DNA of 64,000 nucleotides from Onthophagus taurus. Lineage: Eukaryota > Arthropoda > Insecta > Coleoptera > Scarabaeidae. Position numbers and translations under genes: made by a program. Positions within the stretch are counted from its first letter, which is position 1. Each line of letters starts with the position of its first letter. Below the pieces are notes generated by a model, which worked only from the letters and a program-made list of their open reading frames with translations, was not told the DNA's origin and ran no database searches. Shown one piece after another: positions 436 to 53,700 of this stretch. The stretch covers positions 2,673,501 to 2,737,500 of the forward strand of contig NC_091971.1 of assembly GCF_036711975.1 (NCBI RefSeq), given 5' to 3'.

Positions 436-1057
436 ATGGCAAAAAACACGTCAAGTTCAGCGTTTAGAAAGATCGATGTCGATCAGTACAACGAGGATAA
501 TTTTAAAGAAGAAGATGCCGACCAAGGGGGGCCCACAGGACCCGATGAAAGTGAAATAATCGGCCTTTTAAGCAAATATCCTTTTAAAACTTATCATAAA
601 TTTGAATCAGTTTTTGAGAAATCGCCTTTTTTATAACCGGCATAGCTTTCCTTAACTCTTTTCTTACAGGAAAACATATTGATGCTTTAAGAACAGTACT
701 AACAAATGCTCCATTGGGGTCAAAAAATCAAACACTCAGAGTGAGTACAAAAAAATTTTTCCTGTTTTTCTTATCAATTTCTAGATAAGTTTTTAAATAA
801 ATATATAACATTTTCAGGATAATGCACTAAGTCTTACATTAAGAGTCCTCCTTGCAATAAAAACATCTCAAATAGAAGAAGCTGTGCAATCATTGAACAT
901 AGAATTAATAGATGTTTTAATGAAATATGTTTATAAAGGTTTTGAGATGCCTTCGGAAGGAAGTAGTGGCCACCTATTGGTTTGGCATGAAAAAGCTTAT
1001 AATGTAGGTGGAGTTGGATGTATTGTTAGGGTTTTATCAGATACGAAACGAGCATAG
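436..1057 (+). CDS. Arpc5: Actin-related protein 2/3 complex subunit 5 (ARPC5, p16)
   Basis: Three coding exons, 436-575, 668-740 and 818-1057, give 150 codons, the usual length for ARPC5. The start MAKNTSSSAFRKIDVDQYNE is the conserved N-terminus. The tail (FEMPSEGSSGHLLVWHEKA, then GGVGCIVRVLSDTKRA) is equally characteristic. ARPC5 is an all-helical subunit of the seven-protein Arp2/3 complex, which nucleates branched actin filaments in the cytoplasm. Intron 2 (741-817) is ordinary GTGAGT...CAG. Intron 1 cannot be joined in frame with GT-AG sites without losing conserved residues. Splicing AT-AC at 576/667 restores ...LLSK-GKHIDALRTVL, matching the family. An AATAAA lies only about 11 nt after the stop. 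Confidence 0.95.
576..667 (+). other. U12-type AT-AC intron of Arpc5
   Basis: The 92-nt intron begins ATATCCTTTT (576-585), the textbook U12-dependent 5' splice site. It ends in AC (666-667). A U12 branch-site consensus TTCCTTAAC lies at 648-656, about 12 nt from the 3' end, in the 10-15 nt window typical of this class. The reading frame (phase 2) and the conserved residues on both sides are restored only with these borders. Confidence 0.88.
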
Positions 1058-1434: not shown

Positions 1435-4400
1435 TTACATTTTTGATTTTTGTGTTTTCGCGAGAATATCATGCATATCATTTAAACTGTTAACCAAAGC
1501 ATCTTTAAACTTAACAGCTGAAGTATCAGGATGAGCGGTAAAAGCGGAAATTCCAAAATTAATATCTTTGGGGCGTGGATTATAACAACAAGCGTAACCA
1601 TCCGGTACTAAAGGCCCAAAACACATAAATCCATCGCATTTAGTCGCTACTTGACTCGTTGAAATCCTCATATGTGCACTACGAACATAACCTGGGTCGG
1701 AATAAATTTCAGGAATTTTTTCACCAAGTTCCATAGCAGCCAATTTTAACCCCAAAAGATGACGATCCACTCCAAACCCATTCATAGCCTCAACCGTATA
1801 CTTTTTGTGCCCATCAATAGCTTTTCTTAAAGCGGTTACTTTGTCAGCGTTGCTTTTTGTGTTGTCCAACATCGTTTTTGCGAAATCGATGGATTCAATC
1901 GAACAAGATCTAATCGTTTCTGTTCGGCCATGTGCGTATTTTCTGGTTGCTGCTGATTCATAATGAGCCCCGGGTGTTTTATGTACTCTAAAAAATGTTG
2001 TTATTAATAGAAAATAATTTTTATTTTATCTTTACCTGTAAAACGCGTATTGCAAAGCGATTTGAATAAAACTATCCGGACTGAGTTTTTGTGATTTAAT
2101 AAAATCTTTTCCAAACGAATCAAAATGAAGACAGAATAAATCTAATCCATCAGCTTGTCTTAAAAAAGAAAATTTTAAAGTATTAATGTTTAAATGTTTT
2201 TATTAACTTACTCATCAACGTTTTTGGAAGCGACTAAAATTGCTTTTTGTATTTCATCATTTACATTAAATGGAAGACGTTCTGGTATTTTATTATAAGG
2301 AACATCAGGTTTACCTTTACCTGATTCTTTTTTACTACAAAATTAAAAATACCCATGAAGGTGATAAAACAATGAGTTTAGTCCGAAACTTACATAGATT
2401 CATAGATGTAATCTGAAATAACAGCAACAGGTTGTCCTTCACTTGGCGAGTGTTCATAATTTAACCCAACCAACCCATCTTGCCCTATAATAAACTAAAT
2501 ATGGAATAACAAAATTATATTCATTGATAACCTCGTAAAAAGTTACCTGTATCGTTTTATCATACCAACGATTACCACCATTTTGCTTGCTACCACCTCC
2601 ATGTAATAATTGTCTCCCAGCAATGGTCTTTCTATTTTCATTAGGAAGTGGAGACATCGGCCCATCGAGACAGACCAAAAATAAAGATTTTTGTATTTCT
2701 TTTGCGCTCGCCTCATTTTCAGGATCTTAATAAAAACAATTTTAACAAAATAATGTTATTTACATCCTTAGTTTGGAATTTTGTCAAATAAACGACTTAT
2801 AGTTTGGAGAAACTATGTGGTTGAAACTAAAGATTGAAGCAGAAGGAGAAATGGGAACCAACCACAGAGTACTATCCGTGCAAAAAATCATGGCCCTTTG
2901 TCTACTTTGCTATTTTTTTTCTCCTAAACTATTTGACGAAAAACTTTCAAATTTGAACTGGTGGTAAGCCGATGTGTTCTTATTGTGGGGCATATTTTAT
3001 TTTTTCGATATTCCATATAGTTTCGCGGAAAATCGCCGTTTAGTAGGATGCAGTTATTTCGCTGTTATACAGTACGTCGCGCCTTTATGTTACCTACATA
3101 AAGAAATAAGGCGCGACGTCCTGTCTGGGACGCACCATCTGTTTCGATTGGACAGAACCCCCGTCACCCCGCAGAGCTTATTTCTGTTTCTCTTTAATTT
3201 GTAATTCCATTAAATCGCTCTTAAAAAATTAGGAAGCTCTAATTTTGAATAATTGATAACGGAATCCGACAACCGACATTATTTGACATATTTTGGTCAA
3301 ATCCGCGAGAAAATCCACCCAGCCGTTTTCGACATAACGGCGTCTTACGAAACCGCGATTTTCCGCGAAACTGTATGGAATATCGAAAAAATAAAATATG
3401 TCACTCATTAAGAACACATCAGGCTACCACCTGTTCAAAATTCAAATTTTTTTGTATGATAGTTTTCGAGAAAAAAAATCGCAAAGTTGCCGGTACCGTA
3501 AAAAATCGAGTACTTTTTTCATTTAACTCGCGATAAAAAGAAAATCGTAGATTCGAACATTTTTAAATTGACATATCTTACGTAGAAATGTTCAGTGGTT
3601 ACAACAAACTTTGTCGTAATTTTTTTTATCGAACGGTTGCGAAGATATCTATCTCTAAAGTGCCTTGACTTTTTGCATGGATAGCAGTCATCAACTATTA
3701 ATAATATCCGATAATATAATATCCGTAAACTAAGGCAGGAGGAAGAAAGACTAAAATACCAAGAAAAAACAAACAACGAATTTCAAAAACTAGAACAAAC
3801 AGACAATTTAACACTGGAAGAAAGGAGGAGAATTTTTAATGAGATAATGCGAAATAAAGCTATGGAGGTATGTCGAATGAGAAAATATAATAATTAGAGA
3901 AAGAGGACACACTGTATGACACTGTAAGAACGAATTCGTAAGACGATAGAGCAAACTATAGAACGAATAGAGATATAGTTAAGAATATGGAATAAGGGAG
4001 GCGAAAAAGAACAGTTGGGAAGAGTTTGGAATAAGCTTAAGTGAAATATACGGATTAAATAACAAGAAATTCTGGAATTAAATAAGAAAATTGAAGGGAG
4101 ATTAAAGGAAACAAATAAAAGACGTCAAAGATAAAAACAACGAGATAAAGACAAATACAAGGGAAATTCTGGACTTATGGGCGGATTTTTATGCAGAAAA
4201 GTTTGAAAGGAAAGTAGAGACGGGCAATAAACTACACCTAATATTCGTGGATCTAAAAGCAGCTTTTGACATGGTTAACCATAGTATTATATGGAAGTGT
4301 CTGGAACAACTAATGGTACTACAAAAACTAACAAAAATAATCGAAAACCTGTACAGGAAAGTCAAAGGCATAGTACAAATGAAGCGAAAAACATCAAAAA

Positions 4401-14400: not shown

Positions 14401-17400
14401 AAATTTTTAGTACACACAGATGGCATTTAACATTTAACAAAGATTACACTGAGCATGCATTTAAGTGGTCTGCTGATGTCGGATAAAACATGCTTTCCTT
14501 GTGTGACATGCTTTTTCGCAATGGTTGAGTTGCAGAAGTAACTCTAAGGAATGTTTCGGTGTAGTGACTCGATTCGTAGAAATGTCTAAAGAAAATTTAT
14601 TATCTCATTTCATTTAACGCGTTACAAAAAAAAATCTAAGATATTCATATGTTCGTAATTTATATTTTTAATACGCCTTATATTATCAATGTATTTTTGG
14701 TTTTGATCAATTAAATATATTTTCCGGGAAAACCTTAATACCACATAATAACTTGTTAGCGTCATAATTTACGCGTTTTGCGGCTAAATGTTGATTCACA
14801 ATAAAAAAAATACCCTATTTATAGAGATAAACGTTAAAATGTGCGTAATTATTAGCAAACGGGAGCTTTAGAGGTGATGGGAATGGAAAACGTAGAAGTG
14901 CGATTCGCCAATTAGCAAGCAATTATAACCGTCCTAACTATATTTAGGAGTCACGTGCGAAATTGAGTATGCGCGTAAAGATAAATTATGTTGCCGGTGC
15001 AGACATGGAATGCGAAGTATTTTAGCATTTTTAAGGAGCGGCCTCTGCCTTAGCAATTTCATTCCTCATCTTGTCAGGAAGTGGTTGAATTTAATCGGTT
15101 TCATCCCACTCTTAAATAATTTTAGAATGTTTCTACTAATAATAATAACATTTGGTCGAATGAAAACACAGGTTTGTTTATTAAAACGTGGAGTGTATCG
15201 AATAAAATTTGTTTCTGTTTTAGAGGAGGCTTTTAATTAATGGAATACGCGTTTTAAACGAAATCAACTTTGCGGGCTGCACATACACGTGCGCTCCGGT
15301 GAAATAGAGCGAACGAAAAAATAACAATAAGAGGAGAATAGTCACGTTTATTGTAACGCGCGGTTTTATGCACGTGCGAAATGTAACTTGGAGATAGCGA
15401 AAAGAAATGTTTAATGTTTAACATGTTTCGAATGTATTTCCAATTATGAAATTGTAAGACTCGAAGAAAACGACATTCTATAATCGAAATTAACGATCGT
15501 TAATGTGAACGCAAATATGTAGATTTATGAGTTTTACGACGTAGTAGTTGAAGATAAAATTTTTCGATTTGGTATTAAAAAAGGTAAAATCGTAAAGTTA
15601 TGATATGATATTCATGGGAAACATTTTGTAAGGTTGTGATTGTTGTCTTTGGGGAGGTTTTAAAAATATCATCGTGGGTAAAGTAACTTTAGTGGTTTCG
15701 TGTATACGTTTGAGTTCATGCATGAAGTAGCAACTGCCCATCACCGTGACACGGATAATTGCCATTCCTGCTTTGGGGGCACCCGCTTTACCTCTCTCCT
15801 ATCCAATTACATTATGTTGTCGTCCAGAGGGTGACGGCAAACTTTAACTTTTGCCTCTTCACTACTTGTATTTTAGCACTTAGCGAAGTTAATGACTCAT
15901 CAAATAACAAAGAAATTGAAAAGAAAAATTATAGCTCACAGAAATTATTATTTACAAAATGTTTTCTTTAAAATGATAGCTTTAACTTTCTTTTAGTAAA
16001 ACTTGATTGAGTGCAATATAACTTAATACGATTTTGATTAAATAATTTAAACATTATTGATTAATTAAAAAACTTATGAATGAAAAAAAAACAAAAAAAC
16101 AATGAAAGTTTATTTTTAATTTCATTTATGACGGTATTAATTGACGTCATTTAGTAGTAAACATCGCCACTTAAAATAATTGTTCGAAACATTAAAAAAT
16201 ATTGATTATATTTCCTTTTACGTAGGAGACCCATTTATTTTTTATAACACCGAGGAAATTGATGTTCTGCAAAAAAAATATTCAAAGAAAACAATTTGTA
16301 ATTATTCATTAATAACACACGTGTAACTCAACTTCTGAGAACAAAAAATACTAATGTATCATATTTCTTTATGAGAAAACGCAGACAAACTGTTAAACAA
16401 ACCTTTGTGCGATTTTTGTTTATTCTTCTTAAACCGCTGACAATGGCGAAAAGTTAATATGAAACTAAAAAAACGAAATAAAGAAAATCCATTGTTTGTT
16501 GGATAGCTACTACAACATGTAACGGTGATTCACTAATAATAGTTTTCTAGTGTACTTGAGAGGTCTCAAGGTTTGAAGTTATGTTAAGCTTGTCGAGTGT
16601 TTTTAAATCGCATTTAATTTTAAATGAGTCGGTTAAAATTAACTTCATCGATTTTTGTTAAGTAAAACAAAATATTTTTAAGTCATACTAGTAATATTAT
16701 CGACGGTAGTTGTAGTTTTAATTGGACCGCGTTATACATCACTTGACTAAGCGACATTTTATCGTTTTTAGAGATTTTCATGCTATTTGGTAGGTAAAGG
16801 TGTAAATGCTAAGCTAAAAGCTAAGCGACACATTCGGGCTTAATCGCGAAAGAAACTTTCCGTTGTCAATGTCAACTTTAATTCCATTATTATATTCGTA
16901 ATCTTCATAAAATAACTTTTAAAGTGAGTCCAAACTTGACTCATTTATCTCAAAAAACCAAAAAGTGCGAACTTTCAACTTTTAATTTTGACATATTTGT
17001 CAACTTCATAAAAAATCCTTTAAAATGAGTCCAAACTCGACATATTTAACTTTAATGGAAATACAATCACTTTCGGTTTGAAACGTCAACGTCAATTTTG
17101 ACATATTCATCATCTTCATTAAAAACCCTTTGAAATGAGTCCAAAGATGACGCACTTATCTCAAAAAACAAAACAGTTAGAATAAGAAACATTAAACCCT
17201 AAGTTAGCAACAATGAAGATAGTTTTAAATGTTAATACCAACCTTAATTTTTCATTTTATTTTTATTATATTTTTGTTTTTGTGACTAATATTAAGATAT
17301 TTTATAAAAATTAAGAATATGTCAAAATGATATTGACATTTCAAACCGGAAGTTGCTTATATCTCGGGTCATATTGGAATTAAACGTATCATGTTTGGAG

Positions 17401-20400
17401 TCATTTTAAAGGATTTTCCACGATTACAAATATGTCAAAATTGACGTTGACATTCTTAACCGGAAGTTGACCATAACTTCATTAATATTGAAGATAAATA
17501 TGTCGTGTTTGTACTCATTTTAAAGGATTTTTAATGAAGATTACAAATATGTCAAAATTGAGGTTGACATTTTAAACCTGAAGTTAGATATCATGTAATA
17601 GAAGTTTTATAACTGAAATTAATCTAGTGTTAGTACATTAAAATTATTCATTCAAACAATTTAAAGTGTACATTCACTCCCTTCTCCGTATTAATTCGTT
17701 ATATTGAGGTTTTTTTGTTGTACACAAAATAATTTCTTTAAAATCTAAATTTAAAGTTATTTGAAATCAACGTTCTATTCAAGATCTCTATTCGAAGAAA
17801 TAAATCAATTTGTGACTAGGTTTTACTAAAAACCTTTTGACCTATATAAGAAAAGGGTAAACGACGTTGTCGTTTCAACGTTGAATTATAATCTCTAGTT
17901 TGATATCGAACGATTCCTCGAATATCTGAATACATGCCAACTCTGAATATTTATCTGTTTATCCAAAACCGGAAGTTTGTTTATTGAATTTTAAGAAAAA
18001 TCTTGTCTCGGAATTCGTTTACTTTATAATCTTTTGAATCTTTTTTATAACGAAATAAAGATTATGTTTTGTTTCATCTTATCTATATTTAATGTGACAC
18101 ATTTTTCATGTTAATTTATGACTAAAATAATAAATTATTGTGGTGTTTCTTGATAAATTGATTACGTTAGTTTTATTTTAATGTATAACTTGATAGTATT
18201 AATTGCTTTTTCTAGTATATTTTTGCTTTTTTCTAGCAGCCCACATGGCGTTTGTGGGGCGAAGAGAAAGCAGATGGAGCTCTCTATACGGTTTACCTTA
18301 AGAAAGTACGTTATCATAGACCTACAAGAAGCCTTTCCTCTCCACACTCGGTAAGTATCCAAAATTTAAAAAAATATGTTTTTTTATGTTATCTAAAAAC
18401 AAGTTTTGATCATTATCTACTTTGCTTTTGCTTCAAGGAAGTCGTGGAAATTCCAATTTTGTAAAACGCTAAATTAACAAATCAGGTTTTGTTCTGGTTT
18501 ATCTTTGTCAAACGAACACCGAACCGAGTGGATTAAAAAGTTTTGTTAAAAATAAAATTGTTAGCGGAATATTTTCAATTGGTTTTTGTAGAAAGTTTGC
18601 AGAAACTGCGGAAGTCTGAACAGATTATACACATCCGGATCGTTAGGGAAACTTTTTGTTGTAATGCCCAGAAAGTTTAAATCCGCAGGTTTAATAAACT
18701 TTTTGGTGGAGTTTATAATCAATTATTTTTAATTAGTAATGGATAAATTATATTATCCTACAACAATAATCACACATACTAAAATAATTATAACATAGAA
18801 ACAAAATAACTAAAGTGTATGCGTCATCGAAATGTTCTTTCACACGTTGAGCTCCGAGTTATCATGTTTTTCGGAAGCTCTACACGATGAAGTGATACCT
18901 TACAATCTTTCTTTACTTTAAACACGAGTTCATCGTCCGATGTCGCGCTTCTCTGCCATTTGAATGGATAATGAAGAGTAGCGACCCTAGTAATCAATCT
19001 TTAGTTGTTAAGGAAATGATTTTTATACCGTCTTAGACTTATAATGTTTTGAGAAGATTGGATTCACACACGCTGTTTTTTTTAAGAAGTTTCTGTCATA
19101 AATTTATTAATTTTATATATTTCTAGGAACTCCAAAAAAGCATTGTTCTGTCAGTGTATTATCGTTGAATCAATATTATTATCAAATTCGTGTTGTGTAT
19201 TGAACATCCTTCCGTTGTCATTCAGATTATTAATTTTTACTGTAATATTACTTAAATTTTCGTTAAACATTAAATTAATTTTAACTCTTTTGATGTCATG
19301 CTGTGTAGTATTCTTCAAAAACAAATTCAAAAGTGGCAAAATCGGTAGAAAATTGACAATATAGAAGATGTGAAGTGGAAGAACTCTTCATCGTGTTCAG
19401 TGTTGTTCTCATTTTTATAGCCTCTTTTGTATCCACTGGAGGTAGTGATCATTTTATTTTCCATAACGTCGTCGTAGCACCGAAACTTCGTGCATAAAAG
19501 TGCACACTATTTTTTTATAACAATGCTTTTTTTTCTTATTTGAACAGATTCCACGGAAACTGTAACGTAAAATACTTTGAGTCAAACATAACGCATGCAA
19601 CGAGTTCACAAAGTATATTAAGCTTAATATCTTTAAATAAATCATTCATGGTACATTTAAATTGCAAATAATCACATTCCACGCAAATTCTTGAATTAAA
19701 ATGTTAGATTAAAAGGTAAAGTTTTGTTTTAAAATTTACTCCTTTGATTAACTAAAGAATTTAATCACATTAATTTTCACAATAACATACTTTTCGTTCC
19801 GCTTATGATAGCAAAGAGAAATTCATTTCAAATAATCTTTCTTCATTATTTATCATTCGACACAAATATTGCGAAATCACCAACTTTCAACCACAAGGTT
19901 TTTAATAATTTAATGCAAAAAGAAAACCTAAACTAAGATTTAGTATTATACTTGTTTTGTTTTTCACAATAAATGAACCAAATAAACAGGATTCCCCTTC
20001 CAATTCTACTTCGTCGTCGTACGACTAAAGGAAATTGGTGATTTAAATTCGCGTATCACCGCCGCAACTACACTATAACGTTGTTCACCGCGCCGGAAAT
20101 GACCAGTTACGTTTTATTTTTGTACCTAACGAAATTGTTTACGTTTTTCCCATTCTTTCTTCAAGGTGAAAGAGGTATCTCTAAAAAAAGAAGTAATCGA
20201 ACAAAACGATTTTTTAAATCTTATCTTAAAAACTTAAATTGAGTAATTATTTTTTAAAATCAACAATTTTCAAGGTGATAACATAAAAAAAGAAATGAAC
20301 AGCACATCAAATCTTTGAGAAAGCGATTCTCGATAACCTAGAAATATTTAGCTCGACTTTAATCGCTTTAATTACCTCTTTTTTTCACTTCAATCGAAGT

Positions 20401-23400
20401 GTTTGTTTGAATTTCTAGTTTACGCTTTTTTTCTTCGTTTTCTCGAACACTGTTTACGTCGTAAAACGCTTTAACAAGAATCAAGAGAGAACATATGGAA
20501 GACACTTGTTCCGTAACGAAATTTGAAATTTCACGACGATACAAATCCTCAGAAAAACTTTTATAATCTTATTGTATTATTTGTTGTTTTGTTTTCAATC
20601 CTCGGACAAAAACACCATAAATTTTCGAATGCCTATTTATAATGCCCAATATAGGAACACGCTTAGGTTTATTTTCTACACGTAGGTAGAGAACGTTCGC
20701 TTTTGATAAACAAATCATCTATTTTTATTGCTAAATTTAACGTCTTGGTGCGGATCTTGTATATTTTCATTTGTCGGGGAAAGACTGATGGAATGTGATA
20801 ATCTTTTGGGCTATTGTTGAGCTATCGGTCACGTCCTACTAAAGAATAGTCAAGTAAATACGCTAAGGAAGTTTTTGTGTTCATATGTGTAGCGGTACTT
20901 GGTTTAAAAGAGAATACAATAAGCCTATTGAGTTAAAATAGGGTCTCTGTTTAGTTTATCATGTCTAGACAATCATTGAATTTTTTTAAAAGGATTTAAA
21001 AAAAAATTCAGAAGCAAAAACCACATTGTTTTAAAATAACATTTATTATAACTTTTCTATATCGATATTTTAATAATTTTTTTTATTATTGTTAATTTGC
21101 AGGATTCCGATGATGAAATATCACATTTAGAATGGGAAACAGTACGGGTGAGATTCGTAAAAGCCGGCACTTTGAAAAAATTAGTCGAAGCTTTATCAAC
21201 GGACGACGGAGAACTAGAAACCACCTACATAAACGTGTTCTTGGCCACGTACAGGAGCTTCTCGACACCGAAAGAAGTGTTAAAATTATTACTACAACGG
21301 TACGAAGAACTTTCCGAGTCGCAATCGGCCGCCACTGTAAATGGAAAAGGAGATCATCACGAACAACACAAAAAGTATGAAACATTACTTACAAAAAACT
21401 GTATAAAGTTTATTTTTAGGAAACCGAAACAACTTTGGCATCTCAGAAGCTATAAGAAACTGATTAAATTGAGGTTGTAAAGAGAAACTGGGGTATATAA
21501 AATTGTGTACATACTGTTTTTCTTTAATTTCTACTTCATTCTTTGTAAAGATTACAATTGGACCGCGTTATGGATCACTTGACTAAGCGACAAATAAATA
21601 ATGTGGGATTTTCGTTTTCATTTCTCTAAAAATATAAGACTTCTCAGAATAGACTTCTATTATATCATAACCAACTTCAGGTTTAAAATGTCAACCTCAA
21701 TTTTGACAATCTTCATTAAAAATCCTTTAAAATGAGTACAAACACGTCATATTTATCTTCAATATTAATGAACTTATGGTCAACTTCCGGTTAAGAATGA
21801 CAACGTCAGTTTTGACATATTTGTAATCTTCATTAAAAATCCTTTAAAATGAGTACAAACACGACATATTTATCTTCAATATTAATGAACTTATGGTCAA
21901 CTTCCGGTTAAGAATGACAACGTCAGTTTTGACATATTTCTAATCTTCATTAAAAATCCTTTAAAATGAGTGCAAATACGACATATTTATCTTCAATATT
22001 AATGAACTTATGGTCAACTTTCGGTTAAGAATGACAACGTCAGTTTTGACATATTTCTAATCTTCATTAAAAATCCTTTAAAATGAGTACAAATACGACA
22101 TATTTATCTTCAATATTAATGAACTTATGGTCAACTTCCGGTTAAGAATGACAACGTCAGTTTTGACATATTTGTAATCTTCATTAAAAATCCTTTAAAA
22201 TGAGTACAAACACGACATATTTATCTTCAATCTTAATGAACTTATGGTCAACTTCCGGTTAAGAATGACAACGTCAGTTTTGACATATTTGTAATTTTCA
22301 TTAAAAATCCTTTAAAATGAGTACAAACACGACATATTTATCTTCAATATTAATGAAGTTATGGTCAACTTCCGGTTAAGAATGACAACGTCAGTTTTGA
22401 CATATTTGTAATCTTCATTAAAAATCCTTTAAAATGAGTACAAACACGACATATTTATCTTCAATATTAATGAAGTTATGGTCAACTTCCGGTTAAGAAT
22501 GTCAACGTCAATTTTGACATATTTGTAATCGTCGTGAAACTCATTTTAAAGGAGATTAAAATGAGTCCAAACATGATACGTTTAATTCTAGTATTACTCG
22601 AGATATAAGCAACTTCCGGTTTGAAATGTCAATGTCATTTTGACATATTCTTAATTTTTATAAAATGTCTTAATATTTGTCACAAAAATAAAAATTAATA
22701 AAAAAAAAATAAAAAATTAAGGTTGGTATTAATATTTAAAAATTAAATTGCTATCTTCATTGTTGCTAACTTAGGGTTTATATTTTTTATTCTAACTTTT
22801 CTGTTTTTTGAGATAAGTGCGTCATCGTTGGACTCATTTTAAAGGTTTTTTAATGAAGATGACAAATATGTCAAAATTGACGTTGACGTTTCAAACCGGA
22901 AGTGATTGTATTTCCATTAATATTAAAGTTAAATATGTCGAGTTTGGACTCATTTTAAAGGATTTTTTATGAAGTTGACAAATATGCCAAAATTAAAAGT
23001 TGAAAGTTCGAACTATTTCGTTTTTTGAGATAAATGCGTCAAGTTTGGACCCACTTTAAAGGTTATTTTATGAAGATTACGAATATAATAATGAAATTAA
23101 AGCTGACATTGACAACTGAAAGTTTCTTTCTTAGCTTTATCCTTTAAAACAAATAGTATTTTAGGTCTTTCGGTATTCTGCATTTGCACCTTTACCTACT
23201 AGACAGCATGAAAATCTCTAAAAACAATAAAATGTCGCTTAGTCAAGTGATGTATAACGCGGTCCAATTCATATATTTGCAATTAAAACTTTTGTGGGAA
23301 TCAGATAACTCATTTGAAACCCATTTAATCTGTCAAAAAGCAACTGCGCTCTGCAATGCAACAGCAGAATCTTAATACGCCAAATTGTTGAAAAATATTT

Positions 23401-26749: not shown

Positions 26750-28165
26750 TTCTCTCACTAGAACTAACACTAGATCTAGAACTAGAAACATTCCAATTAG
26801 CCTCTCTTAAGATGGCTGGTAGGTGGTAAGTAGCGCTAGTTAGCATAAAATATCACTATGTTGCATATTTTTATTGAACTAAAACTAGAACTGACACTAG
26901 ACTAGGTCTAGTGTTGGTTCTAGTTTTAATTGTTATGCAGCGCTAGACCAAGAACTAGAATCATTCGGGTTTAGCCGTCTTTAAGAGACGTGCGGCTAAA
27001 CCCAAATGATTTTAGGTCTAGGTCAGTTCTAGTGACAGTGCAAGTGTAAAACTAGAACTAACACTATACCTAGAACTAGAATCATTCGGGTTTAGCCGTC
27101 TTTAGAGACGTGCGGCTAAACCCGAGTGTTTCTAGTTCTAGGTCAGTTCTAGTGACAGTGCAAGTGTAAAACTAGAACTAACACTATACCTAGAACTAGA
27201 ATCATTGGGGTTTAGCCGTCTTTAGAGACGTGCTGCTAAACCCAAATGATTCTAGTTCTCGGTATAGCATTCTACATAATAACAGTGCTAGTGTAAAACT
27301 AGAACTAACACTAGACCTAGAACTAGAAAGTATCGGATTTAGCCGCACGTCTCTAAAGACGGCTAAACCCGAATGTTTCTTGTTCTAGGTCTAGCTTTAG
27401 TTTTAATTGTTATGCAGCACTAGACCAAGAACTAGAATCATTTGGGTTTAGCCGTCTTAAGAGACGTACGGCTAAACCCAAATGTTTCTAGTTCTAATGT
27501 TAATTCTAGTGACAGTGCAAGTATAAAACTAGAACTAACACTATACCTAGAACTAGAATCATTCGGGTTTAGCCGTCTTTAGAGACGTGCGGTTAAACCC
27601 GAATGTTTCTAGTTCTAGGTCAGTTCTAGTGACAGTGCAAGTGTAAAACTAGAACTAACACTATACCTAGAACTAGAATCATTGGGGTTTAGCCGTCTAT
27701 AGAGACGTGCGGCTAAACCCAAATGATTCTAGTTCTAGGTATAGTATCCTACATAATAACAGTGCTAGTGTAAAACTAGAACTAACACTAGACCTAGAAC
27801 TAGAAAGTATCGGATTTAGCCGCACGTCTCTAAAGACGGCTAAACCCGAATGTTTCTTGTTCTAGGTCTAGCTTTAGTTTTAATTGTTATGCAGCACTAG
27901 ACCAAGAACTAGAATCATTTGGGTTTAGCCGTCTTAAGAGACGTACGGCTAAACCCAAATGTTTCTAGTTCTAATGTTAATTCTAGTGACAGTGCAAGTA
28001 TAAAACTAGCTAACACTATACCTAGAACTAGAATCATTCGGGTTTAGCCGTCTTTAGAGACGTGGGGCTAAACCCAAATGATTCTAGATCTATGTATAGT
28101 GTCAGTTCTACATAATAACAATGCTAGTGTAAAACTAGAACTAACACTAGACCTAGAAATATTCC
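26750..28165. repeat. Palindromic satellite array 1
   Basis: Tandem units of about 120-130 bp. Each is itself an inverted repeat: CTAGAACTAGAATCATT.GGGTTTAGCCGTC, a short centre, then ACGTGCGGCTAAACCC.AATG.TTCTAGTTCTAG. Units are separated by TTAGTTCTAGTGACAGTGCA-like spacers. A higher-order period of about 480 bp is visible from the matching segments starting near 27411 and 27893. There is no coding capacity. Confidence 0.92.
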
Positions 28166-31463: not shown

Positions 31464-34400
31464 CAAGGGAAGTGTCACAACTGTGTCTCACCGATTTCGA
31501 TGCAATTTGGTACAGTCATAGAATGGGCCAAAATAAGGTTCGCACATTTTTTTATACGTGCGGTAAAAGCCCCTGGGGCGAGTTATAGGGGTTGAAAGTT
31601 TGGAGAAAAAGTACGTTTTCACTTATATTTTGAAAACGAAAAGTGCTATCAAAATTTGGTAAATTGTAACTGATATTCATTTTAAAAGAGCTTTCTTTTG
31701 ATGTGTCACACATATAGCAGAGGGTTAAAAAGGGCGAACTACCCCTATTTTTTTGGAATTATTTAAAAACCACCCTATCGATTTTGGCGGCATTAAGTAT
31801 ACTTCTAGTGCGTTCAAAAATATTAGTTAAGGGTTTTTTCCCATTCGCCCTAGATCAACCCCAGCGAAGTTACGGGGGTTAACATGTAAGCACTTTTCGT
31901 AAGAATGATGTGATAAAATTGTCAGGTATTTTGAAAATACTTTAAACAAAACCGTAAATTAGTCGCACAATAAAATGTTTAGTGTAAAATAAGGCATAAT
32001 ACACCATATAGGGGTTGTTGGGGTTATCCACCCCCTTAAAAATTAATTCTATCCCGGGCGTTATTTGTCGATTACGGCGAAATTTGGTACTGTGTTTGTT
32101 TTATATTTGAAGTAAAAATTTTTGAAAATGGTTATAAGGGTTACAAATTAGGGGTAGTTTTTTGTTTATACCTCGAAGATGAAAACTGCCATCGTAACTG
32201 TGGTATTGTTTTTTAAAAATCTATCTATCGATGTTCCACGAGGTAAACTACCCTCATTTTCTTTAAATAATAAATATAAAACTACTAGATAAATAAGATA
32301 TTTTATTTATTTATGAGTTAAAAAGCAACTGACAAAAAAAATAGTTCAATATACCAAAGAAGTTTATTCTACATTACTAATTGACGTTTTTTATGTATTA
32401 TATTAATTTTCAATATTAAATTTATTTTTATTCTACGTAGTGTTGGCAAAAATGAAAGTCGTGGAAAAAATGTTTTAAACATAAGGATTTTTTACACCAT
32501 GCACATGTTATGACCGCTATATCCCCACAGATATCACACGTTGGCTTCTCACTCGAAAAGCAAACTTCCACGGGATTTTCAAAATGGTCTGGTCTCTCCT
32601 CTATATAGCCACTTGCAAACCATGCGTATTTAAAAACATTTATAAACCGAGGGGAAGCCAACTGGTTATGCGTCAACGATTGCAATTTTAATATGTTATC
32701 CCTCTGATGTAAATTGACATCATACTGGTAAAGAATAATCTGATCAGAGAATCTTCTAATAAAATTTTTCCATATTCTGAAACCAAATACATCTAGGGGC
32801 TGTATTTGACCTGTTGTCCCTGCAGGTATAGATAAATGTTTAAAATTAGTACCTGATGGAGTTATTTCACTAATAACTTCAGGACAATGGCCACTCCAAG
32901 AATCTAATAATAATAATGATTTAGAACCAGTATTTGGAAAATATACATTTTGGAGCCAATTTTTCATGTGTTCTGAAGTTAACTTTCCAGATTTTGATGC
33001 CAAAACGTATATATTGTCTGCTTTAAACATTGTATTTGCTACCCTCGGTCCAAAGCTGCCAGAGGGTTCTTTTAAAACAATAAAAAGTGGAGAAAGAAGT
33101 TTCCCATCAGCAGATATTACGGGTTGAATTGTGTAACTGTGCGTTGTAGATGACACCGACTGGACCACACTTTCTACGGTTTTAACTCCTAAATCGCTTA
33201 ATGTTCTTCCCGAATGGAATTCCAAGTTAAAACCGCTCTGATCCGAATTGTAGGTGTTTTCAGGTCCATATATTTGGATTTGTAGCTTTGCCTCTTTAAC
33301 GAAATCTTTTGCTAAAGTTTTTACTCGATCAACATTTCCAATTTGTTTTTGGGATAGAAATTTTGTTATTTTTCGGCTTACTAACCGATTTGCTTTCTTA
33401 AAACGTTGCACCCAGCTATGAGATGCTTTGAACAGTTGAGGAGATAAATTCTTTTCATTTCTAGCTTGTATAGCCCATCTGCGTATATCAATATCATGTA
33501 GTGGCAATTTATTATCTACGGCGGCTCTCGCTTGATTAATTACAAATTCGGTAATTTCTGCTAATTTTTCTTTGTATGTCCCTCTTTCTTCAATATATTT
33601 AGACCATCTGTGCAATTGGGTCTTTGACGTTACTTTTCGGTATTTGTTTTTTACGGTTTCTAGTTTCAAATAACCTTTCTTCCCACTTGTCCAGTAATTT
33701 ACCGCCTCTAATTTGTACTCGTAGTCGATGTCATCCTTCAATGGACAATGAGCATCAGTATCTTCTACAAACCTGTCAGTTGTATCCTGGTCTTCAATAA
33801 TTTGCTGACCGTCATTGATGCCATTGGATGAATCGAAAATTAATACAGTTTCGTCTTCAATTTGCATATTGTAGTCTTCCATACTTTCCATTAAAATACG
33901 CTGTATATTTTCTTTTAAACTAACTTCTGCTTCATTTACAGGAGTCTGGGGAATATTCATAACAGTAAAAACTGTCATTAGCAAATTTAAAACGTTTATT
34001 GGGTTTATTGTAACCATTGCTTCTGTCAGTTGCTCTGAAACTAAAATCTACCCACTGGGCACACGTTCTTTTATACTAGAAAAAACTATTTTGAGAAATG
34101 ACCTTTAGCAAGCGGCACTAAAAAAACAAATATTGTGCCAAAATTTTTTTGGTAGGTGTATTTTTGGCAACATTATGTAGAATAAAAATAAACTAATAAA
34201 CTATATAAAACAAACACAGTACCAAATTTCGCCGTAATCAACAAGTAATGCCCGGGATAGAATTAATTTTTAAGGGGGTGGTTAACCCCAACCACCCCTA
34301 AATGGTGTATTATGCCTTATTTTACATTAAACATTTTATTGTGCGACTAATTTACGGTTTTGTTAAAGTATTTTCAAAATACCTGACAATTTTATCACAT

Positions 34401-39881: not shown

Positions 39882-42800
39882 CAGTAAAATCTCGATATAT
39901 CGAACTTCTAATATAATAGACAAAATATTTTTGAACAAAAAATAGAACTAATACTAGATCTAGAACTAGAAACATTCGGGTTTAGCCGTCCGTCTCATAA
40001 GATGATTCTAGTTTTAGGTCTAGTGTTAGTTCTAGATCTAGTGTTAGTACTAGTTTTAATTGTTATTCAGCGTTAGATTGTTGTATATTTTTCATTGAAT
40101 TAAAACTAACATTAGATCTAGAACTAGAATCATTCGGGTTTAGCCGTACGTCTCTTAAGACGGCTAAACCCGAATGATTCTTGTTCTAGGTATAGTGTTA
40201 GTTCTAATGCTAGTGTTAGTTCTAGTTTTAGCTGTTGTTCAGCGTTAGATTGTTGTATATTTTTCATTGAAGTAAAACTAAAACTAACATTTGACCTAGA
40301 ACTAGAGATATTCGGGTTTAGCCGTTTTTAGAGACGTGCGGCTAAACCGGAATATTTCTAGTTCTAGGTCTAATGTTAGTTCTAGTGCCAGTGCAACTGT
40401 AAAACTAGAACTAACAGTATACCTAGAACTAGAATCATTAGGGTTTAGCCGTCTTTAGAGACGTGCGGCTAAACCCGAATGTTTCTAGTTCTAGGTCTAA
40501 TGTTAGTTCTAGTGCCAGTGCAACTGTAAAACTAGAACTAACAGTATACCTAGAACTAGAATCATTAGGGTTTAGCCGTCTTTAGAGACGTGCGGCTAAA
40601 CCCGAATATTTCTAGTTCTAGGTCTAATGTTAGTTCTAGTGCCAGTGCAACTGTAAAACTAGAACTAACAGTATACCTAGAACTAGAATCATTAGAGTTT
40701 AGCCGTCTTTAGAGACGTGCGGCTAAACCCGAATGTTTCTAGTTCTAGGTCTAATGTTAGTTCTAGTGCCAGTGCAACTGTAAAACTAGAACTAACAGTA
40801 TACCTAGAACTAGAATCATTAGGGTTTAGCCGTCTTTAGAGACGTGCGGCTAAACCCAAATGATTCTAGTTCTAAATATACTGTTAGTTCTACATAGTAA
40901 CACTGTTAGTGTAAAACTAGAACTAGCACTAGACCTAGAAGTAGAATCATTCGAGTTTAGCTGTACGCGTCTTAAGACGGCTAAACGCGAATGATTCTTG
41001 TTCTAGGTACAGTGTTAGTTCTAATGCTAGTGTTAGTTCTAGTTTTAGCTGTTGTTCAGCGTTAGATTGTTATATATTTTTCATTGAAGTAAAACTAGAA
41101 CTAACATTTGACCTAGAACTAGAGATATTCGGGTTTAGCCGTCTTTAGAGACGTGCGGCTAAACCCGAATGTTTCTAGTTCTAGGTCTAATGTTAGTTCT
41201 AGTGCCAGTGCAACTGTAAAACTAGAACTAACAGTATACCTAGAACTAGAATAATTAGGGTTTAGCCGTCTTTAGAGACGTGCGGCTAAACCCAAATGAT
41301 TCTAGTTCTAAATATACTGTTAGTTCTACATAGTAACACTGTTAGTGTAAAACTAGAACTAGCACTAGACCTAGAAGTAGAATCATTCGAGTTTAGCTGT
41401 ACGCGTCTTAAGACGGCTAAACGCGAATGATTCTTGTTCTAGGTATAGTGTTAGTTCTAATGCTAGTGCTAGTTCTAGTTTTAGTTGTTGTTCAGCGTTA
41501 GATTGTTGTATATTTTTCATTGAAGTAAAACTAGAACTAACATTTGACCTAGAACTAGAGATATTCGGGTTTAGCCGTCTTTAGAGACGTGCGGCTAAAT
41601 CCGAATGTTTCTAGTTCTAGGTCTAATGTTAGTTCTAGTGCCAGTGCAACTGTAAAACTAGAACTAACAGTATACCTAGAACTAGAATCATTAGGGTTTA
41701 GCCGTCTTTAGAGACGTGCGGCTAAACCCAAATGATTCTAGTTCTAAATATACTGTTAGTTCTACATAGTAACACTGTTAGTGTAAAACTAGAACTAGCA
41801 CTAGACCTAGAAGTAGAATCATTCGAGTTTAGCTGTACGCGTCTTAAGACGGCTAAACGCGAATGATTCTTGTTCTAGGTATAGTGTTAGTTCTAATGCT
41901 AGTGCTAGTTCTAGTTTTAGCTGTTGTTCAGCGTTAGATTGTTGTATATTTTTCATTGAAGTAAAACTAGAACCAACATTTGACCTAGAACTAGAGATAT
42001 TCGGGTTTAGCCGTCTTTAGAGACGTGCGGCTAAACCCGAATGTTTCTAGTTCTAGGTCTAATGTTAGTTCTAGTGCCAGTGCAACTGTAAAACTAGAAC
42101 TAACAGTATACCTAGAACTAGAATCATTAGGGTTTAGCCGTCTTTAGAGACGTGCGGCTAAACCCAAATGATTCTAGTTCTAAATATACTGTTAGTTCTA
42201 CATAGTAACACTGTTAGTGTAAAACTAGAACTAGCACTAGACCTAGAAGTAGAATCATTCGAGTTTAGCTGTACGCGTCTTAAGACGGCTAAACGCGAAT
42301 GATTCTTGTTCTAGGTATAGTGTTAGTTCTAATGCTAGTGTTAGTTCTAGTTTTAGTTGTTATTCAGCGTTAGATTGTTGTATATTTTTCATTGAAGTAA
42401 AACTATAGCTAACACTTGACCTAAAACTAGAGATATTCGGGTTTAGCCGTCTTTAGAGACGTGCGGCTAAACCCGAATGTTAGTTCTAGTGCCAGTGCAA
42501 CTGTAAAACTAGAACTAACATTATTCCTAGAACTAGAATCATTAACGTTTAGCCGTCTTTAGAGACGTGCGGCTAAACCCAAGTGATTCTGGTTCTAGGT
42601 ATAGTGTTAGTTCTACATAGTAATACTGTTAGTGTAAAACTAGAACTAACACTAGACCTAGAAGTAGAAATATTTGGGTTTAACCCGAAACTTTCTAGTT
42701 ATAGGTCTAGTGTTAGTTCTAGTTTTAATTATTATTTAGCATTAGATTGTTGTATATTTTCATTGAACTAATACTAGATCATAAGGCGGCTAAACCCGAA

Positions 42801-44741: not shown

Positions 44742-47700
44742 ATGCGTTCCGGCGATGAGTTCTCAGAGCTCGGAGGTGATCCTGGTGGTGGAGGTGGAGG
44801 TAGCAGTGGTAGATATGGCCCGGGGGCTCCTGGAGGAGGACCCGCGGCGTGGTCGTCGTCGGCGCGGGCTACACCGGCTGGTAGCCGAAGTCGAACACCA
44901 GCCGAAGTCACCGACGACCCTCTCGGGCCAAACGGAAGCCCCAGGACGACGACACATTCAAGAGGACCTGGAGTTGTTCCTGGAGGCGGGGGTGGTGGAC
45001 GACCCGGACTTTATTATTCGCCACCGGGCACTTCTTATACGATCATCGAAAGACCTTCTTCGGCAATGCATCATCATTCACAGGGTCGAGATTATGGAAT
45101 GCAACATTTTAGCACGATGAGTCCTAGAGGTAACAAGCAATAAATAATACCTTCTTTCCGTTAGGAGGATTATGTTTGTTGGCTTATTAAGACTTGTAAC
45201 TTTAAAAGCAAAGTTTCGTGTCGTTTGGCTTAGAGATTAACAAAGCGGAAAAACCGTAAGGAAGTAATAAAGATTTTACGATGGACTAAAAATACAAAGA
45301 TTATTAAAAAGTAAAAATAAATAGGGGTAGTTTAAATATTAACACTAAAGTTAAACTGCAGATTGCTCGTGGGAACGAAAATTCAATACTTAATATATTT
45401 TTTAATTTTTCGTTGGATTATTAAAATTTTTATTCTACTACTTTTACGTTTTAAAGAGTTTCTTTCTTTAATATCTTTTTTTTAAACCTACATAAAACCG
45501 TTGAGTTTTATGGAAATGTTAAATATTTTACGAGCGAACTACAAGGAATATTAAATTATTTCATGTTAAAACTTAAGTCATTGTTGAATAATATTGAAGT
45601 TTTCTTCTTATTAAAGATTGAAACAATCGTCGGACAAAAGATAGCGTTAGTTAGAAGTTATTAAAGTTACATTTGCATCATAGGCTCAGATGTTTGCGAA
45701 ACAACTAAAACTAGAATTAACACTACCATTAAAACTAACACTAAAACTAAAACTAGAAACATTTGGGTTTAGCCGTCTTAAGAGACGCAGGGCTTAATTC
45801 TATAAAAATTTATAACGTAGCATCGAATCGCAGTTAAAACTAAAACTAACACTAAACCTAGAACTAGAAACATTCGGATTTAGCCGTACGTCTCTTTAGA
45901 CGGCTAAACTCGAATGTTTCTAGTTCTAGGTCTAGTGTTAGTTCTAGTTTTCGTTCTGACATTAAAACTAACACTAGCATTCGGGTTTAGCCGTCTAAAG
46001 AGACGTACGGCTAAATCCGAATGTTTCTAGTTCTAGGTCTAGTGTTAGTTTTAATGTCAGAACGAAAACTAGAACTAATACTAGATCTAGAACTAGAAAC
46101 ATTCGGGTTTAGCCGTCTAAAGAGACATACGGCTAAATCCGAATGTTTCTAGTTCTAGATCTAGTGTTAGTTCTAGTTTTAGTTCTGACATCAAAACTAA
46201 CACTAGACCTAGAACTAGAAACATTCGGATTTAGCCGTACGTCTCTTTAGACGGCTAAACCCGAATGTTCCTAGTTCTAGATCTAGTGTTGGTTTTAGTA
46301 TTAATTCTGACATCATAACTAACACTAGACCTAGAACTAGAAACATTCGGATTTAGCCGTACGTCTCTTTAGACGGCTAAACCCGAATGTTTCTAGTTCT
46401 AGATCTAGTGTTAGTGCTAGTTTTCGTTCTGACATTAAAACTAACACTAGACCTAGAACTAGAAACATTCGGATTTAGCCGTACGTCTCTTTAGACGGCT
46501 AAACCTGAATGTTCCTTGTTCTAGATCTAGTGTTAGTTCTAGTTTTCGTTCTGACATTAAAACTAACACTAGACCTAGAACTAGAAACATTCCGATTTAG
46601 CCGTACGTCTCTTCCGACTGCTAAACCTGAATGTTCCTAGTTCTAGATCTAGTGTTAGTTCTAGTTTTAGTTCTGACATCAAAACTAATACTAGACCTAG
46701 AACTAGAAACATTCGGATTTAGCCGTACGTCTCTGTAGACGGCTAAACCCGAATGTTTCTAGTTCTAGGTCTAGTGTTAGTTCTAGTTTTACACTAGCAT
46801 AATAACTTAGTGTTATTATGTAGAATACTATACCTAGAACTAGAATCATTGGGGTTTAGCCGTCTTTAGAGACGTGCGGCTAAACCCCAATGATTCTAGT
46901 TCTAGGTATAGTGTTAGTTCTAGTTTTGCACTTGCACTGCCACTAGAACTGACCTAGAACTAGAAACATTTGGGTTTAGCCGTACGTCTCTAAAGACTAA
47001 TTAAGAGACATACAACTAAATCCGAATTTTTCTAGGTCTAGTATTACTTTTGATGTCAGAACTAAAACTAGATCTAAAACTAGAAACATTCAGGTTTAGC
47101 CATTTAGAAATCTAGCGCTACATAACAATTACAATTTTTTTTATTTTTCTTTCCTTCTAGGTACATATTTGGGTTCGAATCCGAATTTTCGTAGCACCCC
47201 GGGTAACAACAACAAAAAGCGTCCAATTTCGCCCGAACAAGTATTGAGACTCTTCGGTAACACTCAATCGAACGCCAAGTTGAATTCGGAGCGTCCTCGA
47301 AGATCACCGGCTAGCAGTCCGCCTTCTACAACTCATCAAAGCAACTATCGCGTTCCATATGGACCCAGTTTACATGAATTGTCCACAAGAACGATTACGA
47401 TGGTGCGAGATCCAGCGGATGGAACACACGGTTTCGGGATATGCGTGAAAGGTGGTAAAGAAGCCGGTAAATAGAAATGTAGTACAAATCAGATATTCTA
47501 TTTTCTATTTCGAGTCTATAAATAACACGCGGGAAATTGATTTCTGCGTCAATGATGATATCAATCAGGTTTTGTCACGGTTGTTTTAGTATTTAATGTA
47601 CACAATGAACGCGACTAAAATAGATTGTAACATAAAAGGGATAAAATTAAAAAAAAATATATAACAATAAAAATCTCCTCTTCATAAGTTCCTACTTTAA

Positions 47701-50700: not shown

Positions 50701-53700
50701 CGAGAACAATTTGCAATTGTAATATTCGCGCGGGAGACGAACGTGGAACTCTACGTTTGACTCGGGAAGTGCCGCAAAACGATAAACATTCCTCTTTTAT
50801 GTGAGAGACCGGACGAGAGTACTCTTGCATATTTTGCTTGATGACGCGACGTAAATTTAACAAAGACAACTAGGCACGTTGGTTTTCGAGTATAGTTTTC
50901 GAGGAGTTCTCGAACAGATAAGGTTTGTTAAGGGAACTTTTTAATTCTCGGTTTTTTCCCATTTTAAATTAAAATAAAGTATTTCTAAAATTATTCCCCA
51001 TTCAAACTCCCATTACACTTTCCCAGCATCAAAAGAGTCTTGATTACAAGTTTCCTGGAACACGAAACAGAAATCGATTTTCTAAAGGCGTTAAGCTTTT
51101 CCGGGAATAAAGCTTTATAGAAATAGCTTCATACAGAAAGTACCTGATTACACAAGTGTCACGTTTATTTCTAGAAAATCAATTTAATAAATTTATTTTG
51201 CTAAAGTCGAATTATTAGGACAGCCGAAACGTGATACCGTAATTTTAATAATACCCTACATGAATAGCAATTATGTATGGAAATTGTAGCATAATTTGCG
51301 GTTGCGCTTGTTCTAATAATGTAAATTGTATTGCTTTGAACCTAACACGCATTAAAATTACATTTAAAACTGTTTCTGTCAATATGTTTTTTATATTTTG
51401 CTAATTTATTAATTAAAAAAAAATGATTCTTCTACATTAAAACCTCATTATAACCTTTTTACTTTCCCCCTTAAAATTATACGCTACCATAAATTTCGTT
51501 GTTACGTAACTTCACGTGGGGGCCGAAAAGCATTAATCTTCTTCATTCCACGGATGCTCGGTTATAAAAAGTTGCGAAAGCGAGATATACGTATATTTTT
51601 CCGACACTTGATGACTAGCTGTTGTTGAAATGGTCCAGTTTCGGCTTTATATCGTTTCTATTCGTAGTTGGAACTCGAGTCCCAAAAGGATATTTAGAAA
51701 TTCAGACAAACCAACATTCCGATGGCGACGTTCGACGTCGACTATTGATTGGACGTCGGCGTGATAAATGATTTGATTGTAACGAGCTTCGTTCTAGTTT
51801 CTCTTTACTACCCCTGGGGTTATGATAAAGTCAAGCTTTCAATCATTCATATGATGAAAAAAGAATGTTGGGAGTTATAAGGATCAATTTCATTTGATTT
51901 TATATTTTCAAGCATATTCAAAGAAGATTTAATTTTTTACTTTTAAGAAATTAAGTTTAGTAATTCACGTTGGAGTGAATTATCACTCTAACTGTAGTTT
52001 GAACTGAAACCGCTTTATCATAAACTCTCTCGTGCCCACTCGTCCAATAATTTCAACACGAATTTTGTGGTTAATTAACCATCTTCTTACTTCTTGTTCA
52101 TAGAACTTATAGATAAGGAAATATCGCAGTTAACTCTTCATCAATTTTGATTTTTACTGTATCTAGTTATACACCATCAGATTAATATAATTAATAAGAA
52201 TAGATAAATTAATTAAGTCAATATTAAAAAGTCCACGTTAGTGGAGTGAGGTGGCAAAAGAAAATCGTTAATGTGTGTTTTACACACTTCCTAAATTCTA
52301 TACAGTTCCGGTAATATATACATGGCGGATATTGGCCGAATAACAGAGGGGGAGTGTGATGGAACAAGAGAGGCATGTATACTGGATTGCGTGAATGACA
52401 TAACTGTAGTGGTGAGGGTGCTAACAAGAGATATGATAGTGTGAAGCTGAATGTAAAAAAAAAGAAAATAATGAAGTTCTGCAAGAGAGGGAGAAAGTGG
52501 GGCCAGAAATGGAGATGGTTAAGGAAATAGGTTGAGAAGGTAAAGGAGTAATTTGGGATTTTTGGGTATGAGTAAATCTCACAAAGATTTAAGACATAGC
52601 AATATATAAATGCAGCATAATAATAAACAATATTTATTGGTTCAGATAAGTAGTAACAGTAAATACATTGGAAATAAACAAATTAACCCAGATATGCCTA
52701 AATTAAAACCACTTTACAAGTCATAATAACTTTATTGAAAACTTATTTAAAGAAGCAAAACAAAGTCTTACAAACAAACCATGAAAATTTGTTTTTTTTT
52801 AAATTGGAAATTCGGGCCGTCCTACATGTAGGACATTCGGCACATGAATATCTATAAACGTAAAATTATTTATTAGTGTGATACTGAACAAAACACTTCG
52901 TGTGTACACCAATGTCACATTTTGCGCATCTCGTTGTAGTTTTTTGAGGGCAATGAGCACACCTAGTTTGTTTTTCTTGGGGCATAACTAAATGATCTAT
53001 TCGGTCGAAACGCATATCTATTTCGTGGGACCTGGTATGTCCTTTTTGATATGACGATGTTGTTTTTTTCTGAACCAACAGCATTACAGCAATTCTCCAT
53101 CTAAAACTAAGTTGATCTAATTCTCCTCCATTCTTGCGATGCAAATGCCATGCGTTTTGAATTGCCATGTCAATACAGTGAGATATCAAAGGAAAATACC
53201 ATTTTTTTCCTCTGATCGAAATTCGATATAAGCTGATATTTTGGTCAGAGCGGTCGACACCTCCCATATTTGTATTGTACATCTGTATAAGATGCGGCTG
53301 CTGTACCTGAATATTCTTCTTTTCTTTTTGCGAAAAACGTGTGACCGAGTGAATTGGGGCAACTCCAGAAAAATTGGAACAAACAGAAACTACACTATTA
53401 TCGTGCCACTTTACTGCAATTATATTCTGTTCTACAATTTTTGCATAATCATAACTCCCTCTGCGCTGCTTCTTTATGAGTTTTGAATCTATAAGAGAAA
53501 TGTCTTTTAGCCTGTTTTCTCTAACCGTACCAGTAGCATAAAAAATCCAGTCAGTTAGTTTTTCGATCAACGGAATTGACGTAAAAAAGTTATCAAAAAA
53601 AAGATGAAATTTTTTATCTGGCCATTCCTTACGTAAAGCTTGCGCATATTCTAAGACTACTCCAGCACCAACTCCCAATTCAGAAAAGTTTTCACTTATA

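Follow-up and report, generated by a model that had tools for sequence, protein, structure and literature searches.

Evidence for a U12-type AT-AC intron in the ARPC5 gene of the beetle Onthophagus taurus

Segment 576-667 of the 64-kb stretch of DNA analysed here (the window) is almost certainly a genuine U12-type AT-AC intron of ARPC5, in the dung beetle Onthophagus taurus (Scarabaeidae) or a beetle very closely related to it. Introns of this rare but familiar class are removed by a second, minor spliceosome. A preliminary description had proposed this assignment, which is borne out by the splice motifs, their spacing, the reading frame and the identity of the spliced protein in 150 of 150 residues. 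At the level of sequence, the intron is confirmed by its motifs, the frame, the protein identity and the conservation of its donor at the same codon. From this evidence we infer that the segment is removed by the minor spliceosome in Onthophagus taurus.

Gene structure and class of the intron

The Arp2/3 complex, to which ARPC5 contributes the 16-kDa subunit, belongs to the machinery that branches actin. The complete ARPC5 gene lies on the + strand within the first kilobase of the window, and its features are collected in Table 1. Joining the three coding exons yields a protein of 150 amino acids, which is identified as P16-Arc/ARPC5 by Pfam family PF04699 (163.4 bits at a cut-off of 21.9, covering profile positions 1-149 of 150) and matches the solved Arp2/3 16-kDa subunit 1k8k_G with an E value of 1.7e-43. 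All 150 residues are identical to the NCBI entry 'actin-related protein 2/3 complex subunit 5-C [Onthophagus taurus]' (P0001), a gene-model protein, and the window is therefore very probably from this species. No relative of the spliced protein was found in a comparison with viral contigs and genome contigs.

Table 1. Features of the ARPC5 gene, with positions counted from the start of the window
Feature	Position	Strand	Remarks
ARPC5 coding exon 1	436..575	+	46 full codons and 2 bases of codon 47
Predicted U12-type AT-AC intron of ARPC5 (intron 1), 92 nt, phase 2	576..667	+	Motifs, frame, exact match to P0001
Predicted U12-type 5' splice site ATATCCTTTT	576..585	+	Minor-intron consensus ATATCCTT (PMC2831892, in part)
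Predicted U12-type branch site TTCCTTAAC, likely branch A 655	648..656	+	Minor-intron consensus TCCTTAAC (PMC2831892, in part)
Terminal AC of intron 1	666..667	+	AG 2 nt further, 668-669
ARPC5 coding exon 2	668..740	+	
GT-AG intron 2, GTGAGT...TTTTCAG, 77 nt	741..817	+	Ordinary
ARPC5 coding exon 3	818..1057	+	Includes stop codon

Donor ATATCCTTTT and branch site TTCCTTAAC fit the U12 consensus at every position. Hereby, the donor contains the U12 5' splice site pattern RTATCCTT and the branch site contains TCCTTRAY, a degenerate form of the U12 branch site. The likely branch A is located 12 nt from the last intron base and the gap between the motif and the intron end is 11 nt; the resulting spacing of 11-12 nt lies inside the optimum of 11-13 nt between branch site and 3' splice site given for U12 introns in the consulted part of PMC3584512. 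The donor, the branch site about 12 nt from the end and the terminal AC are thus present as they had been described. U12-type introns have no distinct polypyrimidine tract. The intron ends in CTTAC (663-667), and 10 of the 11 bases 3' of the branch motif are pyrimidines, although this stretch is very short. The pyrimidine-rich TCTTTTCTT, with an AG two bases beyond the AC, gives the end of the intron a likeness to a U2-type 3' site. Splicing out 576-667 completes codon 47 (AA/A); without splicing the exon 1 frame runs into a stop at 634-636, in agreement with the stop at 636 noted before.

How often such an arrangement arises by chance was estimated from 300 simulated 64-kb strands, generated by a first-order Markov process with the dinucleotide statistics of the window. 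The strict arrangement ATATCCTTT...TTCCTTAAC...AC within 200 nt occurs 0.0033 times per simulated strand (once in all 300), and the looser RTATCCTY/YTCCTTRAY arrangement 0.02 times. The + strand of the window holds one strict and one looser arrangement, both of which are ARPC5 intron 1, and neither was found on the - strand. A chance origin of the motif pair is unlikely.

Alternative readings and the rest of the window

The intron boundaries were evaluated by translating all pairs with a start at 471-700 and an end up to 740, intron 2 being kept fixed. Among the pairs tested, the annotated protein is reproduced only by 576/667 (AT-AC) and by its one-base slide 577/668 (TA-CA), which yields the same mRNA. 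The earlier statement that only this splice restores the frame therefore stands with respect to the annotated protein but is too strong with respect to the frame itself, since an open frame also results from 26 GT/GC-AG pairs within the range tested, none of them giving the annotated protein. One such pair, GT 551 to AG 669, would represent a major-spliceosome intron whose 141-aa product carries a single Arg in place of SEIIGLLSKG. This pair has a normal-looking acceptor, TTTTCTTACAG, and a defective minor spliceosome is known to lead to the use of cryptic U2 sites in ARPC5L (PMC3958305, in part). However, the 551 donor, AAA/GTGAAATA, is weak in our judgement, the product differs from the annotated protein and lacks residues present in most listed relatives, and a perfect U12 donor and branch site would be left unexplained, so that we consider this reading exceedingly improbable. 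A twintron, with the U2 pair 551/669 placed around the U12 pair, was likewise rejected: GT 551 falls in a Ser codon whose residue, in the part of the alignment considered, is not conserved, relatives having S, N, A, G, T and other residues there, and GT 551 therefore looks accidental.

U2-type AT-AC donors resemble ATAAGT. Removal of the AT-AC intron by the major spliceosome, as a member of this rare U2-type class, has in our view a negligible probability; the class is indeed not set by the terminal dinucleotides alone (PMC3584512, in part), but donor and branch site follow the U12 consensus throughout and show U12 spacing. It is also very improbable that the segment is retained and that the gene, as a pseudogene or through a regulated isoform, yields a protein cut short at 66 aa. 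The frame, left unspliced, does extend to 636, and its 66-aa product scores narrowly above the Pfam cut-off (23.3 vs 21.9 bits), but a conserved ARPC5 is encoded by the downstream exons and the public protein is full-length.

For the U12-type AT-AC intron, the established order of snRNP steps would apply. Most likely, the U11/U12 particle would recognise the donor and the branch site, after which U6atac, U4atac and U5 would join and the branch A, 12 nt ahead of the AC, would be the site of lariat formation. With the intron spliced out, codon 47 would be complete and the ARPC5 frame restored.

A second candidate U12 pair in the window, consisting of a donor at 49950 and a branch-like site about 3.8 kb further on, was set aside as being near chance level. 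Pairs within 5 kb occur 0.68 times per simulated strand, compared to two on the real + strand (including ARPC5) and none on the - strand.

As to the other contents of the window, the convergent neighbour of ARPC5 is a choline/carnitine acyltransferase gene, recognised by PF00755 on the ORF 1435-2025 (-) and extending upstream. Tandem arrays with periods of about 120-480 bp are located at 26921-28158, 40005-42669 and 45841-46991; by eye, their units contain inverted copies of a ACTAGAACTAG/TTTAGCCGTC motif, and the three arrays appear to belong to a single satellite family. Seven 117-bp tandem copies, 97% identical, occupy 21708-22530, with a unit that by eye is similar to that of a 114-bp array on the opposite strand (17316-17585). 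The long ORF 32428-34047 (-) matches the Tc5/DDE_1 transposase families and the long ORF 52866-53903 (-) the DDE_Tnp_1_7 family, which is piggyBac-like. A 372-aa ORF at 55968-57086 (+) matches the helix-turn-helix family DUF4817, with HTH_32 below its cut-off; to us it resembles the transposase of a mobile element. Rfam gave no family match anywhere in the 64-kb window.

The intron in relatives and in gene models

Proteins translated through the donor carry a trace of it. Where a gene caller or a contig ORF continues through it in phase 2, the protein has Q or K followed by Y-P and F, L, S, Y, C or W, because xxR TAT CCT Txx is translated; a phase-2 GTAAGT or GTGAGT donor would instead give an immediate stop and no such tag. 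The tag was counted by the pattern [QKSVL]YP after residue 30. Its placement at the same codon was determined separately and, for P0211, P0262 and P0343, by eye.

Among the listed relatives of the spliced protein (best 120 of 528) the tag is found in 5 of 120. Among the short relatives of the unspliced beetle product (best 120 of 233) it is found in 114 of 120, a number to be read with the fact that this query itself held YPF, which could favour tagged matches. Five others of the latter 120 (P0180, P0202, P0208, P0227 and P0236) read directly into exon 2 with no intron, and one, P0220, is neither clearly tagged nor clearly intronless. The ORFs of the five intronless entries also continue beyond junction 2, the site of the next intron in the window. 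With a mammalian query comprising exon 1 only, and thus no YPF, the YP tag was present in 95 of 103 proteins, in which the YP-encoding donor follows, at the amino-acid level, the residue aligned to codon 47. Named sources of tagged proteins here include the birds Amazona, Bubo and Zosterops and the fishes Channa, Seriola, Scophthalmus and Arapaima; the Zosterops protein reads YPD and is off consensus beyond YP. The remaining eight are P0249, P0250, P0263, P0330, P0336, P0337, P0338 and P0341, of which P0330, P0336 and P0341 show a normal join to exon 2 and P0263 has YLF at the tag position. Over the three lists, 212 of 214 tagged proteins have a third residue, and in 210 of these 212 it is compatible with a codon starting with T, as in the consensus (L and S being ambiguous). 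YP fixes TAY-CCN only, and in most relatives ATATCC and GTATCC would leave the same tag, Q being encoded by CAA as well as CAG and K by AAA as well as AAG.

Judged from these proteins, ARPC5 intron 1 is probably inherited, its donor occupying the same codon and phase in further insects and also, as judged from amino acids, in vertebrates; backboned animals appear to share it at the same spot. The intron is not universal, since ARPC5 is off the 19-gene Drosophila list (PMC2952598, Table 1) and five of the 120 listed proteins are intronless; the intronless ORFs suggest that the minor intron may have been lost in some lineages, possibly flies. The read-through of the donor represents a recognisable peptide tag (YPF and its kin), and the position of the minor intron is therefore traceable across animals from protein databases alone.

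The junction is also a trouble spot for gene models. Among the 119 other listed relatives of the spliced protein (best 120 of 528), ten have an indel in residues 36-62, the zone of the U12 junction (P0015, P0017, P0034, P0037, P0038, P0060, P0092, P0097, P0098 and P0103), and one, P0044, has an indel in the somewhat shorter zone of the GT-AG junction 2 (residues 63-82). Indels elsewhere, in 20 of the 119 for residues 83-150 and in 34 for residues 1-35, were taken as ordinary divergence, and P0097, with one residue fewer, may be plain divergence as well. In P0015, P0017, P0038 and P0103 five residues are absent just before the junction. This is what a forced GT/GC donor joined to the AG two bases beyond the AC would give; in the window, the pair 563/669 leads to a 145-aa product with the same kind of five-residue loss. 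The preliminary description had expected standard gene finders to truncate the gene. For Onthophagus taurus this is not the case, as its public ARPC5 protein is full-length and correct, but in general the expectation is fair, given the ten of 119 listed relatives with an indel at the junction. Gene models stumble repeatedly at the ARPC5 minor-intron junction.

Some read-through proteins also bear on the subtype of the intron. An apparent in-frame read-through of the whole intron is found in three proteins, P0034 (Aquatica leii, the one named source), P0133 and P0234; hereby, P0234 was picked by eye and the codons were read by our own judgement. All three have Thr directly before the exon-2 Gly. 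Their introns would thus end in AC, because Thr is encoded by ACN and an AG end would give Ser or Arg. In addition, SLT or SLI occurs in each of them at a distance of 9-12 nt from the end of the intron, consistent with TCCTTAAC or TCCTTAAT as the branch site. Three proteins are a small sample. P0060 (Zootermopsis) has an insert of 8 residues with Arg before the exon-2 Gly, P0092 (Carabus) one of 11 residues with Asn before a Cys aligned to that Gly, and P0098 has Glu at the position before the Gly. With 7-11 residues these inserts look, in our judgement, too short for whole introns and more like forced splices, and they were set aside.

Comparison with known minor introns

The number of U12 introns in insects had been described as low, with reference to about twenty in Drosophila. 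This holds for Diptera, which have lost most of their U12 introns and retain 15-20; Drosophila is, however, an outlier, and most other insects have several-fold more (PMC3584512, in part). The further statement that AT-AC introns are the rarer type fails for D. melanogaster, where they account for 47% of U12 introns, compared to 8.6% in Apis and 8.3% in Anopheles (PMC7367187, in part). A later fly study reported 48 further minor-spliceosome-sensitive introns; its main text contains no 'Arpc5', 'CG9881' or 'p16-ARC', the list of 48 being in the supplement (PMC7644725). Among the matches listed in a search of titles and abstract openings, none was on a minor intron of insect ARPC5. The pan-eukaryotic survey PMC10639083, judged from a part of it, may well contain the Onthophagus taurus ARPC5 intron.

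A functional role can be imagined. Present since the common ancestor of insects and vertebrates, the intron might slow down the supply of Arp2/3 through a sluggish AT-AC step. Actin branching in insects would then depend on how much U6atac is available, just as ARPC5 splicing does in the cells studied in PMC3728624 (seen in part), and some insect lineages, perhaps flies, would have escaped this control by losing the intron. We regard this as speculative and improbable.

Compared to known systems, the 19 U12 introns listed for Drosophila melanogaster (PMC2952598, Table 1) share class and machinery with the beetle intron, but ARPC5 is not among their genes. Human ARPC5L, a paralogous Arp2/3 subunit, also has a U12-type intron; it is misspliced in RNPC3 patients, with nearby cryptic U2 sites being used (PMC3958305, in part).

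The closest counterpart is the ARPC5 intron itself, from a study of blocked U6atac that was reportedly carried out in human cells. ARPC5 was named there among the minor introns that accumulate upon the block (PMC3728624, in part). It is the same gene, its intron is U6atac-dependent in that study, and a YP-encoding donor is found, at the amino-acid level, at the same codon and in the same phase in mammalian-, bird- and fish-type proteins. ARPC5 and ARPC5L are already reported minor-intron genes; with ARPC5 among them, the intron is expected. ARPC5 intron 1 of the beetle is real but ordinary, and by its position it would be the orthologue of a known minor intron.
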